DNA of 64,000 bases from Cellulomonas shaoxiangyii. Lineage in GTDB: Bacteria; Actinomycetota; Actinomycetes; Actinomycetales; Cellulomonadaceae. Under the pieces are notes generated by a model. It ran no database searches and was not told the origin of the DNA. It saw only the letters and a list, made by a program, of their open reading frames with translations. A program made the translations under genes and the position numbers. The stretch covers positions 1 to 64,000 of the forward strand of contig NZ_CP039291.1 of assembly GCF_004798685.1 (NCBI RefSeq). The letters run 5' to 3'. Positions within the stretch are counted from its first letter, which is position 1. Each line of letters begins with the position of its first letter. Of the stretch, positions 6,749 to 25,266 are shown piece by piece.

Positions 6749-9076
<2,328 letters not shown>

Positions 9077-13306: not shown

Positions 13307-13379
13307 GGGGCCATGGCGCAATTGGTAGCGCACCTGCTTTGCAAGCAGGGGGTTAGGGGTTCGAGTCCCCTTGGCTCCA
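13307..13379 (+). tRNA. tRNA-Ala (TGC)
   Basis: Complete 73-nt tRNA. The acceptor GGGGCCA (13307-13313) pairs with TGGCTCC (13372-13378) and the discriminator A is at 13379. Anticodon TGC at 13340-13342 sits between CCTGC and GCAGG. CCA is not encoded. Sequence immediately downstream changes to lower-GC island DNA, so the 3' end of this gene is the probable insertion point of the following mobile segment. Confidence 0.97.
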
Positions 13380-13441
13380 CTACAGATTCACTCCCGGTGA
13401 GCCTTTCGCCAGGGTGGCGACCGGTGATGCTCGACTAGGGC

Positions 13442-14309: not shown

Positions 14310-17177
14310 GTGATCGGACAGGTGGGCCGGCGATTGACTGACGAAGTGCGGAACTGGGCGACCACCCAGGACCGCGATCGACAGATCTATGAGATGCGTC
14401 TTTCTGGTGCACGCCTCGAAGCGATCGGGCACGCCTTCGGGCTCACCCGTGAACGCATCCGGCAAATCGTCGGACAGATGGGCGGCGTCGACCGCGAAGA
14501 CGTCGCAGCAGCACGGAGCGCGAGGCGGGAGGCGGAGGAAGCACAACTGCGCGACCGGATCCTCGCTGTCGTTGCAACGGGCCTCGCTAGATCGTCGGCG
14601 CAGGCAGCCACGATGGTGGGGACGGACGAGGCCACCGTACGGCGCCTCGGGGGGAGGGCCCTCACCACATGGCTCGGCTCCACGAGACCGCCCAGGACTC
14701 GGTGGGCCGCGTCGGATGTCATTGGGGCCCTGCGAGTCGCTGCAACGTACGAGTGGCCACTGTCTCGAGCTGCCTACCAAGATCTGGTCGATACAGGGGA
14801 GATCGAAGGCCCAAGCTCTGCCCGGATCGAGCAACTCCACGGCTGGGCCGCCGCATGTGAGTTGGCGGGAATCGAGAGCTCGCGGCGTCGGCGTAGGGAC
14901 TACCAGTCGACATGGACCGACGACGACCTGTGGCACTTCGCGCGTAAGTACATCGAGCACTGCGGGTCGACGGCACCGTTTCACGGGTTCGACGTCTGGC
15001 GCATCGAGCACGCGCCAGACGCGCCATCGAGCGGCGTCTTGCGACGGCGACTCGGCAAGTGGAACGGCATCCGACGCACCATCCTGTTCGAGGGAGATTC
15101 GATGAGCGAGGAGACGCTCACTGGCAAGGAGTCGCTCCGCCTCGATGAGCAGCTCGTCGACCGCATGGACGACGAGAGTCGTGTGCGCGTCTGGAAGTCC
15201 GTGATCGACATCTTGGAGCGCGGTCCGCAGCGCACGGGCGTCGGGGGGCAGACCGGCCTTGCGCTGGGCTACGTGCAGTCGGGGAAGACGACGTCGATCA
15301 CGGCCCTGATCGCCGCAGCAGCGGACCAGGGCTACCAGATCATCGTGGCGCTGCTCGGAGGTACCAACCTCCTGCTCGACCAGAACAAGGACCGGTTGGA
15401 GAGCGCACTCGGGACGCAATCGCGCAAGGACTATCGATGGGTCACTGAGGTGAACCCCTCTGGAGCCGCGACGGCCAAGCGCATCGGGGCGCGGATCGAG
15501 GGAGGACGAGCGGTCCTGATCCCCGTGCTCAAGCACGCGGGCCGACTCAATGCTCTCGCGTCCGTGCTCGACAAGGTGCCCGAGATCGAGCGCGTCCCGG
15601 TGCTGATCATCGACGACGAGGCTGACCAGGCTTCGCTGAACACGAGCTCGACGGCAGAGAGCAAGACCTACGAGGCGATCCGTATCCTGCGCTCACGCGT
15701 GCCGAAGCACCTCTACGTCCAATACACGGCCACGCCGTACGCGCCACTGATGCTCGATGCAGATGATCTGTTGAGTCCCGACTTTGTCGAGTTTCTCGAG
15801 CCCGGCAATGGATATACTGGTGGCCGCGAGTTCTTTGTCGAGTTCGCTGACCAGGTCATCCGGGACGTGCCGCTCTTGGAAGAGCAGCCAGCAAAGGCGC
15901 CTCCCCTCGAGCTGCCTCGGAGCCTCGTGGCGGCATTGGGCTCGTTCGTCGCGGGTGCTGCGTTGCTGGTCCAACATCAGCCCGATGCAGCGCCTGTGAG
16001 CATGCTCATCCACTCCACCCAGAGGAACGACGTCCAAGAGCGGTATCGCTTCCTGGTCGAGCGCGAGCTCCGAAAGTGGAGGACCGCCGCGGACACAGCT
16101 GTGGCGGTGACCGACCTCCCCGAGTCCGTCGGGAAGGAGCGGACCGTCCTGACTGAGCGAGGGGCGCCCGACGTCGACGACGCAATGTTCATCGATAAGG
16201 TTCGGTGGGTGCTGCGTGAGACGTCGCTCTGGCTCGTCAACTCTACGTCGGCGCTCAACAAGGTCGAGTGGAACGTTACGCCGGTACACATACTCATCGG
16301 CGGCAACAAACTCGATCGCGGGTTCACGGTGGAAGGCTTGACGGTCACGTACATGAACCGGCCCCCCAGCACACAGGTCGATACGCTCGAGCAGCGCGCG
16401 CGCGCTTTCGGCTACCGGCGTGACCAGCTGCCCTATTGCCAGTTCTTCGCGACGAAGCGAAGCATCCGCTCCCTGAGAGACATCGTCTTCACAGAGTACG
16501 ACCTTCGGGCCCAACTTCAGGACCACGTCGATGCTGGCGGCACCGTGCATTCGTGGGCGCGTGACGTCGGCCTGATGCTCCCTGAGGGGATGAAGCCGAC
16601 GAGGGATGTCGTCGTGAACCAGCTGGACTATCTCGCTCTCGGTTGGTCGTCCGTTCGCCTGCCGCGTCTGAATACCGCATCTCTGGCCACCAACCGTGCG
16701 ATCGCCGCGGAGATCGGGCTGTTCGACGCTCCGCCCGTCGACTATGGACGGCTCCTGTTGAGGACCGTCGACATCACCGTGGCTGAGGTCTTGGAGAAGG
16801 TCGTCGCGAGATGGTCTGCCGACGAGTACGGGCCGTCGTGGAGGCTGCGGGACGTCTCCGAGGCGCTTGCCCGGCACCACGATCAGGAGCAGAGGGTCCC
16901 CGTAATCCTCATGGAAGACGACGGCCGGCCACGGCTTCGCAAGTGGGACGTCGAAACGGGCTTCGTCAACCTCTTCCAGGGGCGCGACAACGTGCGCAGC
17001 AACGGTGGGGCGGCATACCCAGGAGACCGGGCCATCGGAAACATCGCTGACGACTCCAGCTCGATCGTGGTCCAGATCCATCGCGTCGCTCGCCGCGACG
17101 ACCCAGGTACCGAGCTGCTCACGCTCGCCGTCCATCTCGGCGACCGCAAGATCGTTCGAAAAGGAGCCACCGCGTGA
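14310..17177 (+). CDS. Z1-domain P-loop ATPase with N-terminal DNA-binding repeats
   Basis: A 955-aa ATPase of the Z1 family (PF10593), a superfamily-II-like group known beside cytosine methylases and Vsr in restriction systems. Walker A GYVQSGKTTS lies near residue 321, Walker B LIIDDEAD near 433, a TAT motif in VQYTATPYA near 472, and the Z1 signature GGNKLDRGFTVEGL near 666 followed by the FGYR motif near 700. The N-terminus adds a sigma-region-4-like helix-turn-helix (residues 20-55, ending RERIRQIV) and two segments (about 118-180 and 190-250) of the WTDDDL...PSSGVLRRRLGKWN pattern seen in homing-endonuclease-associated repeats; both are my reading. Start GTG 14310 is tentative: GTG/TTG alternatives follow at 14322, 14334 and 14346 and no strong ribosome site decides. 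First gene of a tightly overlapped operon. Confidence 0.85.
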   Translation: MIGQVGRRLTDEVRNWATTQDRDRQIYEMRLSGARLEAIGHAFGLTRERIRQIVGQMGGVDREDVAAARSARREAEEAQLRDRILAVVATGLARSSAQAATMVGTDEATVRRLGGRALTTWLGSTRPPRTRWAASDVIGALRVAATYEWPLSRAAYQDLVDTGEIEGPSSARIEQLHGWAAACELAGIESSRRRRRDYQSTWTDDDLWHFARKYIEHCGSTAPFHGFDVWRIEHAPDAPSSGVLRRRLGKWNGIRRTILFEGDSMSEETLTGKESLRLDEQLVDRMDDESRVRVWKSVIDILERGPQRTGVGGQTGLALGYVQSGKTTSITALIAAAADQGYQIIVALLGGTNLLLDQNKDRLESALGTQSRKDYRWVTEVNPSGAATAKRIGARIEGGRAVLIPVLKHAGRLNALASVLDKVPEIERVPVLIIDDEADQASLNTSSTAESKTYEAIRILRSRVPKHLYVQYTATPYAPLMLDADDLLSPDFVEFLEPGNGYTGGREFFVEFADQVIRDVPLLEEQPAKAPPLELPRSLVAALGSFVAGAALLVQHQPDAAPVSMLIHSTQRNDVQERYRFLVERELRKWRTAADTAVAVTDLPESVGKERTVLTERGAPDVDDAMFIDKVRWVLRETSLWLVNSTSALNKVEWNVTPVHILIGGNKLDRGFTVEGLTVTYMNRPPSTQVDTLEQRARAFGYRRDQLPYCQFFATKRSIRSLRDIVFTEYDLRAQLQDHVDAGGTVHSWARDVGLMLPEGMKPTRDVVVNQLDYLALGWSSVRLPRLNTASLATNRAIAAEIGLFDAPPVDYGRLLLRTVDITVAEVLEKVVARWSADEYGPSWRLRDVSEALARHHDQEQRVPVILMEDDGRPRLRKWDVETGFVNLFQGRDNVRSNGGAAYPGDRAIGNIADDSSSIVVQIHRVARRDDPGTELLTLAVHLGDRKIVRKGATA

Positions 17178-18283
17178 CTGAGAGCCCGTCTGGGATTCGT
17201 TCCGGCGTCCCGATGCAGGTGCCGATCTCGGCGCTCTTGCTCGACCCCTTCAACCCTAGGCTCCCAGAGTCGCTCCGCGGTGGGGACCAGTCCGACTTAG
17301 CCGTCGTGCTGGAGATGGGATTCGACGCGTTCGCAGTCGCGCAGTCGGTCGCGGACAACGGGTTCTTCGCCGCCGAGCCATTGATTGCGATCCACGACGA
17401 GATCCCTGGAAAGTACGTCGTCGTCGAGGGAAACCGTCGGCTCACCGCGCTGATCGGACTGTCTCACCCCGAGATCCGAGAGCAGTTCGCGGATCCTTCG
17501 CGATGGGAGGCGGTCGCGGAGAAGGCTGCTATGTCGCCTGAGGTCGCCGTGCCGATCGTCGTCCACACCAACCGCGAGGCAACGCACGTGGAGGTGTCGC
17601 GTGCGCACGTCGTTGGCAAGCTCCAGTGGCGGCCGTACATGCAGGCCCGCTTCATCGCGGCTCGGGTAGCCGAGGGGCGCACTATCAAGGAAGTCGCCGA
17701 CCTGATCGGCATCACGAAGAGCAAGGCCGCCGACCTCTACCGAGACCAGGCGATCGTGGCACAGGCCGAGACCGCCGGCCTGAACACGGGTGAGGTGGAG
17801 CGCGCATTCTCCGTACTGACGGTGGCGATGGGCAACACGAAGCTCCGTGACCACATTGGCGCGCCCCTGGGTTCTCGGCTCGAGCCCGGTCAAGCTCCGG
17901 TGCCGCCTGGAAAGATTCCCGAACTCAAGGAGGTCATCTCCTGGGTCTTCGGCGACGAGGAGGCGGAACCGGTCATCACCGACTCCCGTCAGATGAGCGC
18001 ACTCGGTAACGTCGTGGCGAGCGAGGTCGGGTTGGCCTCGCTTCGATCAGGCAAGAGCCTCGAGGAGGCTAAGCAGCAGGTCCAAAGCGCTGGTATGGAC
18101 CCTCGGGAACGGCTGCTCAAGCGGATGACGGCTGCCACGAACGCGCTCGGCGCAGCAAGTGACGACCTGGCCGAGCACGCGACCGACAAGCAGGTGGTCG
18201 GCCTCGTTTCCGACCTGGAGTCTCTGGTCGAATCGATGCGTAACGTCATCGATCAGGCAGCGAACGAAGCGCGTGCCCAGTGA
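17174..18283 (+). CDS. ParB-like domain protein of the Z1 operon
   Basis: 369-aa protein with an N-terminal ParB/Srx-type domain: VPISALLLDPFNPRLP opens it, and VVVEGNRRLTAL near residue 84 is the conserved GxRR nucleotide-binding motif. A helix-turn-helix follows (GRTIKEVADLIGITKSKAADLY, about residues 175-197). The C-terminal half is helical and unassigned. Such proteins bind DNA and, in chromosome partition, act as CTP switches; here the partner parA is absent, so partition is unlikely. GTG 17174 overlaps the Z1 stop by 4 bp, behind AAGGAG. It probably supplies DNA binding or regulation for the defence operon (inference). Confidence 0.8.
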   Translation: MTESPSGIRSGVPMQVPISALLLDPFNPRLPESLRGGDQSDLAVVLEMGFDAFAVAQSVADNGFFAAEPLIAIHDEIPGKYVVVEGNRRLTALIGLSHPEIREQFADPSRWEAVAEKAAMSPEVAVPIVVHTNREATHVEVSRAHVVGKLQWRPYMQARFIAARVAEGRTIKEVADLIGITKSKAADLYRDQAIVAQAETAGLNTGEVERAFSVLTVAMGNTKLRDHIGAPLGSRLEPGQAPVPPGKIPELKEVISWVFGDEEAEPVITDSRQMSALGNVVASEVGLASLRSGKSLEEAKQQVQSAGMDPRERLLKRMTAATNALGAASDDLAEHATDKQVVGLVSDLESLVESMRNVIDQAANEARAQ

Positions 18284-19149
18284 CGATCCGCGGTCGGGCC
18301 CGCATAGCCGACTGGATCGAGGTTGGGCTCCTCGTACGAGGGCCACGACCGCTCGGGCTTGACCCGCTTCAGTCGTTCTTCGAGTCGTCGATCGGTCTCG
18401 AGCCGCAGCAGGTAAACACGGGTGTTCGAGAGATGGCGCGCCGCGGGGCGTTGCTTGGTGCCCGCTACCCCTTCAAGGTCCATGGGGAGTACGCAGTGCA
18501 GTCCACGACGGACGCTGCACGGTCGACGTACATGACCGCTGCCCTGATGGCGCCCGGTAACCCGGTCCGCGAGTACCTCAAGGCGGCCCCCGACGAGTCG
18601 ATGGCGGTGACGTTCGAGAATCTCGTTGCAAGCGCGGCCGCGGGTATCTGGGGCGATGCTGGTCATGCGCTCAGATTCGGTTGGCCGTCCGAGATCGGCC
18701 GGCCACCGGAGTTCGACGCTGCTATCAACTGGCTGGCTCACAGGATCGGCGTCAGCGTCGGGCAGGGCTATCGACAGCCACGCCGCAGGGATGGCGGCGT
18801 CGACGTAGTCGCGTGGCGGCCCTTTCCCGACGGACGATCAGGGTTCCCGGTTTTGCTCGTACAGTGCACGTTGCAGGAGAACCTCCTGGCGAAGGGTATG
18901 GATGTCGATACGAGACTCTGGAGTTCGTGGCTGGCGATGGACGTCGACCCGACCACCGCGCTGGCCACTCCGACGGTGGTTCCCCCTGGGGCGGTCTGGA
19001 ACGAGCTTGCGCTCAAGTACATGGTGCTCGACCGCATCAGGCTGATCGGTCTGTCACCGGCGGCGACTGCGGAGCAACTAGCGGTGGACTGGGTCGCCGC
19101 CACCGTCGAGGGCCTTCGTGAGCACCTGGAAGAGATCAGAGAGCTGTGA
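18280..19149 (+). CDS. Probable PD-(D/E)XK-type nuclease of the Z1 operon
   Basis: 289-aa protein that I do not recognise by name. The best clue is the block GGVDVVAW (near residue 172) followed by PVLLVQCTLQEN (near 192), which fits the D...(E/Q)xK-like active-site layout of Mrr-type restriction enzymes, with Thr where Lys is usual. Upstream, residues 1-100 look like a helical/winged-helix region. It overlaps the ParB-like gene by 4 bp (GTGA) and the next gene by 4 bp. Its place in the operon is where the restriction subunit is expected. Function is inferred from motif and context only. Confidence 0.55.
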   Translation: MTIRGRARIADWIEVGLLVRGPRPLGLDPLQSFFESSIGLEPQQVNTGVREMARRGALLGARYPFKVHGEYAVQSTTDAARSTYMTAALMAPGNPVREYLKAAPDESMAVTFENLVASAAAGIWGDAGHALRFGWPSEIGRPPEFDAAINWLAHRIGVSVGQGYRQPRRRDGGVDVVAWRPFPDGRSGFPVLLVQCTLQENLLAKGMDVDTRLWSSWLAMDVDPTTALATPTVVPPGAVWNELALKYMVLDRIRLIGLSPAATAEQLAVDWVAATVEGLREHLEEIREL

Positions 19150-19433
19150 GGATCCAGAAGCAGGACGTCGTCAGGGAGATCGCCGACGCGCTCGGTCGAG
19201 AGGCACCGACGATGTCGACGGGGTCGACGGAGCCGAGAGCGATCTTCGACATGATCGACAAGGAGCTTGCGCTCGGGCTTCCACCCGGGCTCACCAAGCC
19301 GCAGATCGCCCAGGCGATCGTCGAGTCGTCGGGTGAGGTCTGGGGACCGGATTACGAGTCGCGAGGCGGGACGGTGACGCTAAGGGGTCTTCAGGCGGTG
19401 AGGGAGGCCGTCCGGTTCTACCTCGGGAGCTAG
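19146..19433 (+). CDS. 95-aa protein of the Z1 operon, winged-helix-like
   Basis: Small protein beginning at GTG 19146, overlapping the preceding stop by 4 bp. It reads as a compact helical domain: KQDVVREIADALG, TKPQIAQAIVESSGE, then a GGTVTLRGLQAVREAV strand-helix segment. This resembles a winged-helix DNA-binding module often joined to restriction enzymes, here as a separate polypeptide. No catalytic motif is visible. It could be a specificity subunit or regulator of the nuclease encoded just upstream. A 183-bp gap follows before the methyltransferase. Confidence 0.6.
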   Translation: MRIQKQDVVREIADALGREAPTMSTGSTEPRAIFDMIDKELALGLPPGLTKPQIAQAIVESSGEVWGPDYESRGGTVTLRGLQAVREAVRFYLGS

Positions 19434-19616
19434 GTGCCGTTGCGCCACAGTCCACGCGCGCCGCCCCGAGCGCGAGCGATCCGCTAAGCTGGGGCCTAGC
19501 TGAAAGCTTAGCTAAGCTCGAAGGCGTCGTCCGGTGACAGCCGGTCGCGACTCGGCTACCGTACGAGTGTTTCGAACACACGTTCGAGTTGGTGCACAGC
19601 GTCGGAGGAGGTCCAG
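19434..19616 (+). promoter_or_regulatory. dcm promoter region with operator-like palindromes
   Basis: Two symmetric elements stand out. A perfect 14-bp palindrome AGCTTAGCTAAGCT occupies 19505-19518, and GCTAAGCT at 19483-19490 forms an inverted pair with its left half. A second inverted repeat, TCGAAC at 19572-19577 with GTTCGA at 19582-19587, lies closer to the start. GGAGGAGG at 19604-19611 is a strong ribosome site for GTG 19617. Methyltransferase genes of restriction systems are often controlled by a C-protein or by the methylase itself through such sites; the binding factor here is unknown. Confidence 0.5.
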
Positions 19617-21077
19617 GTGGCAACGTCGACGGATGTACCGTTCAGGTATATCGACCTCTTCGCAGGGATCGGCGGTTTCGCCGCCGCTCTCGAGGCGTTC
19701 GGCGGCGAGTGTGTCTACTCTGTGGAGATCGACGCGTCGGCAGCTAAGGTCTACGAGCGCAACTGGGGCCACTCGCCGCTCGGTGACATCACCAAGGACG
19801 CCAACGATGGTGCCATGAACGTCCCGCCGCACGACCTGCTAGCCGCCGGCTTCCCGTGTCAGCCGTTCTCTAAGTCAGGGGCGCAGCGCGGCATGGAGGA
19901 GACTCGCGGCACGCTCTTCTGGAACATTCTCAAGATCATCGAGGCACACCACCCGACGATCGTGCTCCTCGAGAACGTGCGAAACCTGGCCGGGCCGCGA
20001 CACAAGCACGAGTGGGACCTAATCATCCGGACGCTCCGGGACGAGGGGTACCGGGTCTCGTCGAGCCCGACGGTCTTCTCGCCCCACCTGCTGCCCCTCG
20101 AGCGCGGCGGCCGCCCGCAGGTGCGTGAACGCGTGTTCATCACGGCCACCTATGACCCTGACGGGATCCTCGAGGGTGTCGATCCACTTCCCGCACTGTC
20201 CAATAGAACGCAGCGAGGCACGGAAGAGTGGAGCCTGCTCCATGACCTTCCTGTCGACGGTACGAGTGAGGATCCGGGCACAAGGCTGACCAAGGCTGAG
20301 GTTGCATGGATCGATGCCTGGGACGATTTCGTCACCACGATGTGGGCGGAAGTGCAGAAGACCACGGCTGATGGAAGAAGGCTGGCCGCCCTCCCAGGGT
20401 TCCCGATTTGGGCAGACCACTGGGTGACGTCGGAAGAGTTGGCCCTCTGGATGGTCGGAGGGAATTCGCCCTACGGCACGGCCGACGTTCCGAACACCTG
20501 GGACGCGGTGCCGGCCTGGAAGAAGACGTTTCTGCTCAAGAACGCCGAGTTCTACACGCGGCACAAGGCGCAGCTTGACCGGTGGGCTTCTCGGCACGAT
20601 CTTGCGTCGTTCCCGCCTTCCCGTCGGAAGCTCGAGTGGCAGGCCCAGCACGCGGCGACGTTGTGGGAGTGCGTTCTACAGCTTCGGCCGTCGGGAATCC
20701 GCGCTAAGCGTCCGACGCACGTTCCTGCCCTTGTTGCGATCACGCAGACATCGATCATCGGCCCGCTGCGCCGTCGACTCACGCCTCGGGAGGCCGCTCG
20801 CCTCCAGGGATTCCCCGACAACTTCGACTTCGGTCCGCAGCGTTCGGCAGTTACGTACAAGCAGCTCGGGAACGGCGTGAACATCGGCGCCGTGTGGAAC
20901 GTGCTCCGGGCGCACGCAGAACGGGATGCTGCGATCCTCCGGAGCACCGAGAGGGGCCACGCTCTACTGAAGGCGCTCGTCGACGACGCACCCAAGACGC
21001 CCGACGACCGCCTCGACGCCGTCGTGGCTCGGGGGCGCGCCAGATTCGCCGACGCGAAACTCGCGCTTCCGGTGTGA
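19617..21077 (+). CDS. C5-cytosine DNA methyltransferase
   Basis: Transfers a methyl group from S-adenosylmethionine to carbon 5 of cytosine. Motif I DLFAGIGGF (residue 12), motif IV with the catalytic cysteine GFPCQPFSKSG (near 78), motif VI LENVRNL (near 118), motif VIII RPQVRERVF (near 165) and the late motif QLGNGVN (near 416) are all in place, with a long target-recognition region between about 200 and 390. 486 aa. The target sequence cannot be read from the protein. Paired with vsr downstream (4-bp overlap) and divergent in control from the Z1 operon, which runs in the same direction upstream. It should protect host DNA from the associated nuclease. Confidence 0.93.
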   Translation: MATSTDVPFRYIDLFAGIGGFAAALEAFGGECVYSVEIDASAAKVYERNWGHSPLGDITKDANDGAMNVPPHDLLAAGFPCQPFSKSGAQRGMEETRGTLFWNILKIIEAHHPTIVLLENVRNLAGPRHKHEWDLIIRTLRDEGYRVSSSPTVFSPHLLPLERGGRPQVRERVFITATYDPDGILEGVDPLPALSNRTQRGTEEWSLLHDLPVDGTSEDPGTRLTKAEVAWIDAWDDFVTTMWAEVQKTTADGRRLAALPGFPIWADHWVTSEELALWMVGGNSPYGTADVPNTWDAVPAWKKTFLLKNAEFYTRHKAQLDRWASRHDLASFPPSRRKLEWQAQHAATLWECVLQLRPSGIRAKRPTHVPALVAITQTSIIGPLRRRLTPREAARLQGFPDNFDFGPQRSAVTYKQLGNGVNIGAVWNVLRAHAERDAAILRSTERGHALLKALVDDAPKTPDDRLDAVVARGRARFADAKLALPV

Positions 21078-21550
21078 ACGGACCCCCGGTTCCGACTCGG
21101 CCCCAGCATGTGCCGACACACCCCGGATCCTCGTCTGCCGCCGTTTCGAAGCGGATGAGCGCGGCGAAGCGACGTGACACCGGCGCTGAGATGGCGCTGC
21201 GGCGGGCGTTGCACGCGCTCGGCCTCCGCTATCGAGTCGCATACCCGGTGCCGGGTCAACGTCGACGAACGATCGATGTCGCGTTTACGCGTTCGAAGGT
21301 GGCTGTTTTTGTCGACGGGTGCTTCTGGCACGGCTGCCCCGAGCACGGCACCATGCCGCGATCAAACCAGGAGTGGTGGGAGACGAAGATCGGCGCAAAT
21401 CGCGCCCGAGACCGTGACACCGACCGGGTTCTCGGAGAATCGGGCTGGACAGTCGTTCGGATCTGGGAGCACGCGGCGCCCGGCGCTGCTGCCCAGCGGG
21501 TTTACGGGATCGTAGGACTTCGCGCCGCATCGAGGATCACAGACAGTTGA
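21074..21550 (+). CDS. vsr: Very short patch repair endonuclease Vsr
   Basis: Nicks next to T in T:G mismatches that arise when 5-methylcytosine deaminates, limiting the mutagenic cost of the adjacent methylase. The 158-aa product has RRDTGAEMALRRALHALGLRY in its N-terminal half, the catalytic Asp in TIDVAF, and the Vsr hallmark FVDGCFWHGCPEHG near residue 79. GTG 21074 overlaps the methyltransferase stop by 4 bp; an internal start at MSAAKRR (residue 28) is also possible. Last gene of the island. Confidence 0.9.
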   Translation: MNGPPVPTRPQHVPTHPGSSSAAVSKRMSAAKRRDTGAEMALRRALHALGLRYRVAYPVPGQRRRTIDVAFTRSKVAVFVDGCFWHGCPEHGTMPRSNQEWWETKIGANRARDRDTDRVLGESGWTVVRIWEHAAPGAAAQRVYGIVGLRAASRITDS

Positions 21551-21556
21551 CTGACG

Positions 21557-21618
21557 AAGCCACGATTGGTAGAGCGCGCCTTCGTGGGCGGGGTTGGCGG
21601 TTCGATTCCCCTTCGGCC
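21557..21618 (+). pseudogene. tRNA-like relic at the right end of the island
   Basis: The stretch reads like the D-loop to 3' end of a tRNA: ATTGGTAGAGCGC, then an anticodon-arm-like hairpin around TTCGTGG, then GGTTCGATTCCCC followed by TTCGGCCCC. The 5' acceptor half is missing and the T-stem is mispaired, so it is not a functional gene. Its last 25 bases resemble the 3' end of tRNA-Ala at 13355-13379 at 18 positions, which would fit a degenerate attachment-site duplication bordering the island. The match is imperfect. Confidence 0.5.
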
Positions 21619-21725
21619 CCGTGGAGCGCGTGGCTTGTCGCATTGAACAGGCCTACGTTCCGCGGGCGTGCGCCTGGTGCGGACACACCGCGGGAAGGGA
21701 CGTGCGCTCGTGCCTGGCCCGGACG

Positions 21726-22073
21726 TCAGGTGTGCAGGTGGGACCGCCAGTCCGCGGGGACGCGCCCTGCCGGCCCGGGCACGGGCTGGTCGTCCGGGCG
21801 GCTCTCCGGCGGGGCCAGCGCCGGGCCGCGCGCGTAGTCGTCGGCGGCGTAGTCCCAGAACCAGTCCTCCCCCGGCTCGAACGAGCGCACCACCGGGTGG
21901 CCGGTGGCGTGCCAGTGCGCCGTGGCGTGCTGCGACGGCGACGTGTCGCAGCAGCCCACGTGGCCGCACGCCGCGCAGCGGCGCAGGTGCACCCACCAGC
22001 CGCCGTCGGCGTCGCACTCCACGCAGCCGGGGCCGCTGGGCGGGACGGTGGGGTCGATGGCGTCGACGGTCAT
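21726..22073 (-). CDS. UBP-type zinc finger protein
   Basis: 115-aa protein made almost entirely of a zf-UBP-like zinc-binding fold: CVECDADGGWWVHLRRC, then CGHVGCCDTSPSQHATAHWHATGHPVVRSFEPGE. In eukaryotes this fold binds the ubiquitin C-terminus; the bacterial versions have no known ligand. Its ATG overlaps the stop of the upstream histidine kinase by 4 bp, so the two are translationally coupled and probably work together. The C-terminal 30 residues are Pro-rich. Confidence 0.85.
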   Translation of the reverse strand: MTVDAIDPTVPPSGPGCVECDADGGWWVHLRRCAACGHVGCCDTSPSQHATAHWHATGHPVVRSFEPGEDWFWDYAADDYARGPALAPPESRPDDQPVPGPAGRVPADWRSHLHT

Positions 22074-23590
22074 GAGGGGCGCACCTCCGCGGTGTAGGGG
22101 AGCCGGACGAGGAACCGGGTGTCGCCCGGCTGCGAGCGGACCGTCAGGTCGCCGTGGTGCTTGCCGACGACGATCCGCCACGCGATGTCGAGGCCGAGCC
22201 CGGTCCCGGACCCGACGGGCTTGGTGGTGAAGAACGGCTCGAAGACGCGGCCCACCACGTCGGGCGGGATGCCCGGGCCGGTGTCGGCGACCTCGACCTC
22301 GAGCCAGTCGTCGACGCGGCGCGTGGTGACGGTCAGCGTCCCGGCGCCGTCCAGGGCCTGCGCCGCGTTGTCGAGGAGGTTCGTCCACACCTGGTTGAGC
22401 GCCGCGCCGTACGCGTGCACGGGCGGCAGCGTGCGGTCGTAGGCGCGCACGACCGTGACGCCCTCGAGCCGCTTGTCGAGCATCGTCAGCGTCGCGTCGA
22501 GCAGCTCGTGCACGTCGAGCTCGCGGTCGGGTGCGAGGCCGATCTGCGAGTACTGCTTCGCGGCACCGACCAGCGTGGAGATGCGCGTGGTGGCGTCCTC
22601 GACCTCGTTCATCAGCTGCTCGGTCTCGAGCGCGTAGCCGAGCCAGCGCACCGCACCCTCCAGCACCTCGGGCGCGACCGCGTCGGCGACCGCGTCGAGC
22701 CACGTCCCGTCGAGGCGTGCCGACACGAACGTCGGCGCCAGGTCCCACGGCTCGCGGACGCTGTGCGCGTCGAGCCAGTCGGTGACGGCGTCCTCGGCGT
22801 CGGTGCGCTCGAGGGCCGTCGGGGGCGGGGGCGCGCCGGGCGCCCGCGACTTCGCGAGCGACTCCACGGCCTGCTCCTGCAGGTCGACGAGCGTGGCCAG
22901 CGTCGTCGCGTCGTACGGCCCCGACGCGATCAGGGCGAGCTTGTGCCGCATGCCGGCGACCCGCTCCCGCAGGGCCGACGTGGCCCGGCCGGCGGCGGCC
23001 GCGGGGTTGTTGAGCTCGTGCGTGAGCCCGGCGGAGAGGGCGCCCAGGGCGAGCAGGCGCTCGCGCTGGTTGACGGCCAGCTGGGTGTCCCGCTGCCCCA
23101 TGAACAGGCCCTCGAGCAGGTGCACGGCCATGGGGAACCACTGCGTCATGAGCTCGCTGAAGTCGGCCGCGGGCAGCGCGTAGAAGCGGGACGGCGCGAG
23201 CACGCGCATCGTCTGGCTGTACGTCTGCGGCGCGCGCTCGCCGAGGTAGGCCGCCCACGCGCCGCCGTACACGCCCCGCTGCGAGGTCCGGGAGATCTCG
23301 ACGTCGTCGGTGCCGACGCGGTGGTCGAGTGCGACCGAGCCCTCGAGGAGGACGTAGAACCACGCGGCGGGCTCCCCCTCGGCGTATAGGACGCCCGGCT
23401 CGCGCCGCTCGACGTGCCCGTGCGCGCACAGCCACCGCAGCTGGTCGTCGTCGAGGTGCTCGAACAGGAAGAGCGTGCGCAGCTCGTCGATGTCGCACGG
23501 CTGGGCGTCGGCCGGCCGGGCGGCCGCCACGGAGGCCGTCGCGCGCCCCGACGGGCGCACCGCGTCGGGGCCACCCGTCCCCGCGCTCAC
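22070..23590 (-). CDS. Sensor histidine kinase with cyclic-nucleotide-binding domain
   Basis: 506-aa soluble kinase. Residues about 30-160 form a CRP/FNR-type cyclic nucleotide-binding domain (LFEHLDDDQLRWLC, then ERREPGVLYAEGEPA). The phosphoacceptor segment is GLTHELNNPAAAAGR near residue 190, and the HATPase domain shows NLLDNAAQAL, DTGPGIPPD, FEPFFTTKP and GTGLGL in the last 110 residues. No transmembrane segment, so it senses a cytoplasmic signal. The neighbouring response-regulator fusion ends 4 bp into its start region, making it the obvious phosphotransfer partner (inference). Confidence 0.9.
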   Translation of the reverse strand: MSAGTGGPDAVRPSGRATASVAAARPADAQPCDIDELRTLFLFEHLDDDQLRWLCAHGHVERREPGVLYAEGEPAAWFYVLLEGSVALDHRVGTDDVEISRTSQRGVYGGAWAAYLGERAPQTYSQTMRVLAPSRFYALPAADFSELMTQWFPMAVHLLEGLFMGQRDTQLAVNQRERLLALGALSAGLTHELNNPAAAAGRATSALRERVAGMRHKLALIASGPYDATTLATLVDLQEQAVESLAKSRAPGAPPPPTALERTDAEDAVTDWLDAHSVREPWDLAPTFVSARLDGTWLDAVADAVAPEVLEGAVRWLGYALETEQLMNEVEDATTRISTLVGAAKQYSQIGLAPDRELDVHELLDATLTMLDKRLEGVTVVRAYDRTLPPVHAYGAALNQVWTNLLDNAAQALDGAGTLTVTTRRVDDWLEVEVADTGPGIPPDVVGRVFEPFFTTKPVGSGTGLGLDIAWRIVVGKHHGDLTVRSQPGDTRFLVRLPYTAEVRPS

Positions 23591-25266
23591 CGCTCCCCCA
23601 GGTACCGGTGCACGAGCATGACCGCCATGGCGCCCTCGCCGACCGCCGAGGCGACGCGCTTGGCCGACTCGGCGCGCACGTCACCCGCCGCGAACACGCC
23701 GGGGACGCTCGTCTCGAGGTGGTACGGCGGACGCTCGAGCGGCCACCCCGGTGGTGGGCCGCCGTCGACGAGCAGGTCGTGGCCGGCCCGCAGGAAGCCC
23801 CGGGCGTCGCGCTCCACCGTTCCCTCGAGCCAGTCCGTCAGCGGGGCGGCGCCGATGAACACGAAGAGCCAGCCGGCGGGGACGTGCTCCTTCTCCCCCG
23901 TGCCGACGTCGCGCAGCACGATCCCGTCCAGGTGCTCGTCGCCGACCGCGTCGACCACCTCCGTGCGGGGACGCACCGTGATGCGCGGGTGCGTCGCGAT
24001 CTGCTCGACGAGGTAGTGCGACATCGACGCCTCCAGACCGTCGCCGCGCACGAGCAGCGTCACCGAGCGTGCGTCCCGCGCGAGGAACAGCGCGGCCTGC
24101 CCCGCCGAGTTGGCGCCACCCACCACGTGCACGTCCTGGTCGCGGCACGCCGCCGCCTGCGTGAGGGCGGACCCGTAGTAGACGCCGCGGCCGACGAGCG
24201 CCGCCGGCCCGGCCCCGTCGAGCTCCCGGTACGCGACGCCGTTGGCGAGGACGACGGCGTGCGCGGCGACCGTGCTGCCGTCCGCGAACCGCAGGGCCCG
24301 CGCCGACCCGTTCACCTCCAGCGCGACCACGTCGCGCGCCATCACGATCTCCGCGCCGAACCGCTGCGCCTGCCGCCGGGCGCGCTCGGTGAGCTGCGCC
24401 CCGGAGACGCCGTCCGGGAAGCCGAGGTAGTTCTCGATCCGTGAGCTCTGCCCGGCCTGCCCGCCGGTCGCGGTGCGCTCCACGAGCGCCGTCCGGAGCC
24501 CCTCGGACGCGGCGTACAGCGCGGCGCTCAGCCCGGCCGGTCCCCCGCCGACGACCACCAGGTCGTAGAAGTCGGACGCCGGCTCGACGGACAGTCCCAC
24601 GCGCGCGGCGAGGGCGGCGTCGTCGGGGGCGACGAGCACGTCGGCGTCCGCCGTCACGACGACCGGCAGCACGCTGCCGTCCACCCCCGCAGCCTCGAGG
24701 ATGCGCCGGCCCTCGGCCGACTCCACGGCGTACCAGCGGTACGGCACCTGGTTGCGGGCGAGGAACTCGCGCACCTGCGTGGACCGCGCGGACCACCGGT
24801 GCCCGACGACCTTGGGCCCGTGCACCGGCACCGGCGCCGCGGTGCGCCACGCCTCGAGCTGCGCGTCGAGCACCGGGTAGAGCTTCTCCTCCGGCGGGTC
24901 CCACGGCTTGAGCAGGTAGTGGTCCAGGTCGACGACGTTGACGGCGTCGATCGCGGCCGCGGTGTCCGCGTACGCGGTGAGCAGCACGCGGCGGGCCACG
25001 GGGAAGAGGTCCATCGCCTCCTCGAGGAACTCGATCCCGCTCATCCCCGGCATGCGCTGGTCGGCGAGCAGCACCGCGACCTGCTCGCCGCGCAGCTTGA
25101 GCTCGCGGCACGCGTCCAGCGCCTCCCTGCCGGACTCGGCGCGCACGATGCGGTACTGCTCGCCGTAGCGCCGGCGCAGGTCGCGCGCGACCGCGCGCGA
25201 GACGGCCGGGTCGTCGTCCACGCTGACGAGGGCGGCGCGCGGTGGTGGGGCTGCGACAGTCGGCAC
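23587..25266 (-). CDS. Response regulator fused to thioredoxin-reductase-like flavoprotein
   Basis: 559-aa fusion. Residues 10-130 are a receiver domain with acidic cluster VDDD at 16-19, phosphoacceptor Asp69 (LLADQRMPG) and Lys120 (LLKPWD). Residues about 150-225 look like a glutaredoxin/thioredoxin-type fold. From 234 on it is a TrxR-like FAD/NAD(P)H oxidoreductase with VVVGGGPAGLSAA and VHVVGGANSAGQAA, and the terminal FAD motif GVFAAGDV. The redox-active CxxC of true thioredoxin reductase, expected near 364-368, is replaced by YGSAL. GTG 25266 is chosen for the GGAGGG box a few bases upstream; the ORF extends to 25344. Overlaps the kinase gene by 4 bp. Confidence 0.88.
   Translation of the reverse strand: MPTVAAPPPRAALVSVDDDPAVSRAVARDLRRRYGEQYRIVRAESGREALDACRELKLRGEQVAVLLADQRMPGMSGIEFLEEAMDLFPVARRVLLTAYADTAAAIDAVNVVDLDHYLLKPWDPPEEKLYPVLDAQLEAWRTAAPVPVHGPKVVGHRWSARSTQVREFLARNQVPYRWYAVESAEGRRILEAAGVDGSVLPVVVTADADVLVAPDDAALAARVGLSVEPASDFYDLVVVGGGPAGLSAALYAASEGLRTALVERTATGGQAGQSSRIENYLGFPDGVSGAQLTERARRQAQRFGAEIVMARDVVALEVNGSARALRFADGSTVAAHAVVLANGVAYRELDGAGPAALVGRGVYYGSALTQAAACRDQDVHVVGGANSAGQAALFLARDARSVTLLVRGDGLEASMSHYLVEQIATHPRITVRPRTEVVDAVGDEHLDGIVLRDVGTGEKEHVPAGWLFVFIGAAPLTDWLEGTVERDARGFLRAGHDLLVDGGPPPGWPLERPPYHLETSVPGVFAAGDVRAESAKRVASAVGEGAMAVMLVHRYLGER

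Follow-up and report, generated by a model that had tools for sequence, protein, structure and literature searches.

A six-gene Cellulomonas island that looks like a mobile restriction-modification system with a ParB-like protein

Can a protein of the chromosome-partition type serve in DNA restriction? The question is raised by six genes of Cellulomonas shaoxiangyii, found in a window of 64,000 nucleotides (contig NZ_CP039291.1, positions 1 to 64,000). Together they look like a mobile anti-phage restriction-modification (RM) system in which a ParB-like protein is teamed with a DNA motor, a nuclease of the Mrr-like type and a very small protein whose presence follows the methylase. The gene island of the original prediction is confirmed as an observation, and its interpretation as a candidate undescribed defence system is supported in part. 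No description of the system was found in PADLOC-DB 2.0.0, Pfam, NCBIfam or the literature searched, most subscription papers being beyond reach. The island and its boundaries are as follows (aa, amino acids).

13307..13380, + strand: left boundary, tRNA-Ala (TGC), probably the attachment site
14310..17177, + strand: first of the six island genes
17174..18283, + strand: ParB-like protein, 369 aa, with NPRLP and EGNRRL boxes and a helix-turn-helix (HTH)
18280..19149, + strand: winged-helix and PD-(D/E)XK (Mrr-like) nuclease, 289 aa, assigned from AlphaFold model, fold matches and residue conservation
19146..19433, + strand: SMALL, 95-aa protein and candidate for target recognition, with the boxes STGSTEP and ESRGGTVT
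19617..21077, + strand: C5-cytosine DNA methylase, 486 aa, of subfamily 'A' (a name coined in this analysis)
21074..21550, + strand: Vsr mismatch endonuclease, 158 aa, overlapping the methylase stop by 4 bp
21590..21620, + strand: right boundary, where the 3' part of tRNA-Ala recurs as a degenerate copy

The ParB-like protein and the nuclease

Canonical ParB carries box I (NPR), box II (GxRR) and box III (ENxxR). Boxes I and II are present in the island protein (NPRLP at 27, EGNRRL at 85), and in one hhalign comparison with relatives' chromosomal ParB (probability 62%, E 7e-5) EGNRRL falls on the GERR box and the HTH on the chromosomal HTH. Box III is not conserved, the region aligned by hhalign being RAHVVGKLQWRP. 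The predicted ParB-like identity is borne out by the two boxes, the HTH and this alignment. In PADLOC, the protein matches PD-Lambda-5_A (4.3e-16, 56.8 bits) over N-terminal residues 14-184 only; for comparison, the protein of locus L035 reaches 370.7 bits across residues 1-441.

Does the ParB-like protein act in abortive infection (Abi)? It might sense phage DNA or its own methylation, and the nuclease would then degrade the DNA of the cell, a mode of action suggested for its relative PD-lambda-5. The N-terminal match is consistent with this, as is PMC9519451, according to which PD-lambda-5 seems to be an RM+Abi system in compacted, prophage-borne form. However, the D12 methylase partner and long ParB of PD-lambda-5 are absent in the island, and methylase, Vsr and motor are more like RM (CglI). 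Abortive infection is considered unlikely.

The 289-aa protein was predicted to be a probable PD-(D/E)XK enzyme, and both its AlphaFold model (pLDDT 91.6) and the fold matches, which are nucleases, agree. Mrr consists of a winged helix-turn-helix (wHTH) N-terminus and a PD-(D/E)XK core, and the model has this layout; the Mrr_cat Pfam match (12.5 bits) is under the cut-off of 21. Among homologues, D175, Q195 and K205 are each kept in 36 of 36 ungapped rows, and E113 is found in 30 of 37 rows.

The methylase, Vsr and the 95-aa protein

The methylase (C5 methylase Pfam, 3.3e-71; PADLOC DruM2/DruM, 5e-193) and Vsr (TIGR00632, 113.7 bits; cut-off 97.85) are as originally assigned. Does the same gene order occur elsewhere? 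A C5 methylase is encoded no more than 6 kb away at 28 of 34 genome loci and at 24 of 26 viral loci, but the side and orientation of methylase and Vsr differ from locus to locus. Their co-variation with the four upstream genes is weaker, with the weaker methylase correlations still above most permutations (0 to 14 of 999). In L020, att repeats enclose both parts, i.e. the four genes and methylase/Vsr. Two other loci have distinct layouts: L010 (10001-14892) carries two tandem ParB-nuclease pairs, of which the second has diverged strongly, and neither a C5 nor a D12 methylase was detected within 6 kb; in L026 a NotI-family restriction enzyme gene (6757-7680) is directly 3' of the ParB-nuclease pair.

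SMALL has 88 homologues (model pLDDT 93.3), and its presence tracks methylase subfamily. The domain, a candidate for target recognition, is also found fused to other nucleases. Could the set then be a methylation-dependent (type IV, Mrr-like) one, its methylase acquired elsewhere for another purpose? The Mrr-like nuclease architecture and, in L017, a fusion of the SMALL domain to the RE_AspBHI_N reader point in this direction. Yet a C5 methylase so frequently alongside would be harmful unless specificities differ, and the SMALL domain forms the N-terminus of HNH nucleases next to methylases of the same subfamily, an arrangement normal for type II systems; a type IV set is rated as distinctly improbable. 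SMALL may be a detachable recognition domain common to unrelated restriction nucleases, a proposal that can be tested.

Phage relatives and the tRNA-Ala site

The ParB-nuclease core is also present in P2-type phages, without the motor. A ParB-nuclease-C5 methylase triad lies beside gene A in P2-family phages and a prophage (L112 3896-6932, L113 96-3266, L114 3896-6948). Phage Wphi orf98-orf96-mth and phage 12474III gp04-gp05-gp06 share with the island the ParB-like protein, the nuclease family and the C5 methylase. The triad nuclease has no Pfam family above cut-off and no PADLOC model, and a near-identical gene is found in 48 of 5,426 complete E. coli genomes. The island gives a reading for this triad. 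In a viral contig (L075 9908-13029), a ParB-like protein and nuclease occur together with a D12 adenine methylase, which may connect PD-lambda-5 with the cytosine triads.

The predicted att region at the island end corresponds to the tRNA-Ala 3' copy, which scores 34 against a maximum of 21 among 200 random stretches. A relic of a plasmid or integrative and conjugative element partition or repair region, with no immune role, would fit the ParB-like label, the tRNA integration and the broken transposase relic adjoining the island, but is hardly credible, as ParA or replication genes were not found among the six proteins (Pfam), active-site residues are conserved, the genes are coupled across wide distances and they are present at the P2 accessory locus.

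Beside the island, a 652-aa protein (window 21726-23684, - strand) has a C-terminal zf-UBP domain; it is matched in 6 of the 18 further relatives searched, elsewhere in those genomes, in four cases over most of the protein. In L161 (same genus), the region downstream of tRNA-Ala has genes resembling Druantia type I (DruA1 896 bits, DruE1 1208 bits). A GHKL gene of the MzaB-like kind is also near the tRNA-Ala site, which therefore looks like a defence hotspot.

Comparison with known systems

Among the closest known systems are MZA and the related MORC/paraMORC-SFII helicase RM operons (Iyer 2008, PMC2292703). An MzaC NCBIfam match gives 126.2 bits, under the cut-off of 1500 bits. The MutL-type GHKL gene (MzaB) is lacking, as had been predicted: there is no PF13589 match within the island, and no MzaB model among the PADLOC matches listed for the six proteins (for the methylase, 25 of 62 families). 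If the RM reading is true, a chromosome-partition-type protein has been placed inside a restriction machine, and ParB and GHKL proteins are alternative switches beside the same motor.

CglI-type RM shares the C5 methylase, but its nuclease is PLD-B3, of which the six proteins show no Pfam match at E<=1; that of the island is wHTH and PD-(D/E)XK by model. The ParB-like and 95-aa proteins are additional, and Vsr is present in the island.

PD-lambda-5 (ParB-like A and D12 adenine methylase B) has a homologous ParB-like N-terminal region and shares an occurrence in P2-like prophages; the window ParB does not match the A protein over its full length, and no D12 adenine methylase hit lies within 6 kb of it.

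A ParB/Srx-type fold tied to DNA restriction is also seen in SspE, GmrSD and DndB type defence proteins (PMC13251355, PMC12839542). SspE has DUF262 with DGQQR and GmrSD has ParB fused to HNH, whereas the island has EGNRRL with an HTH, and a separate nuclease.
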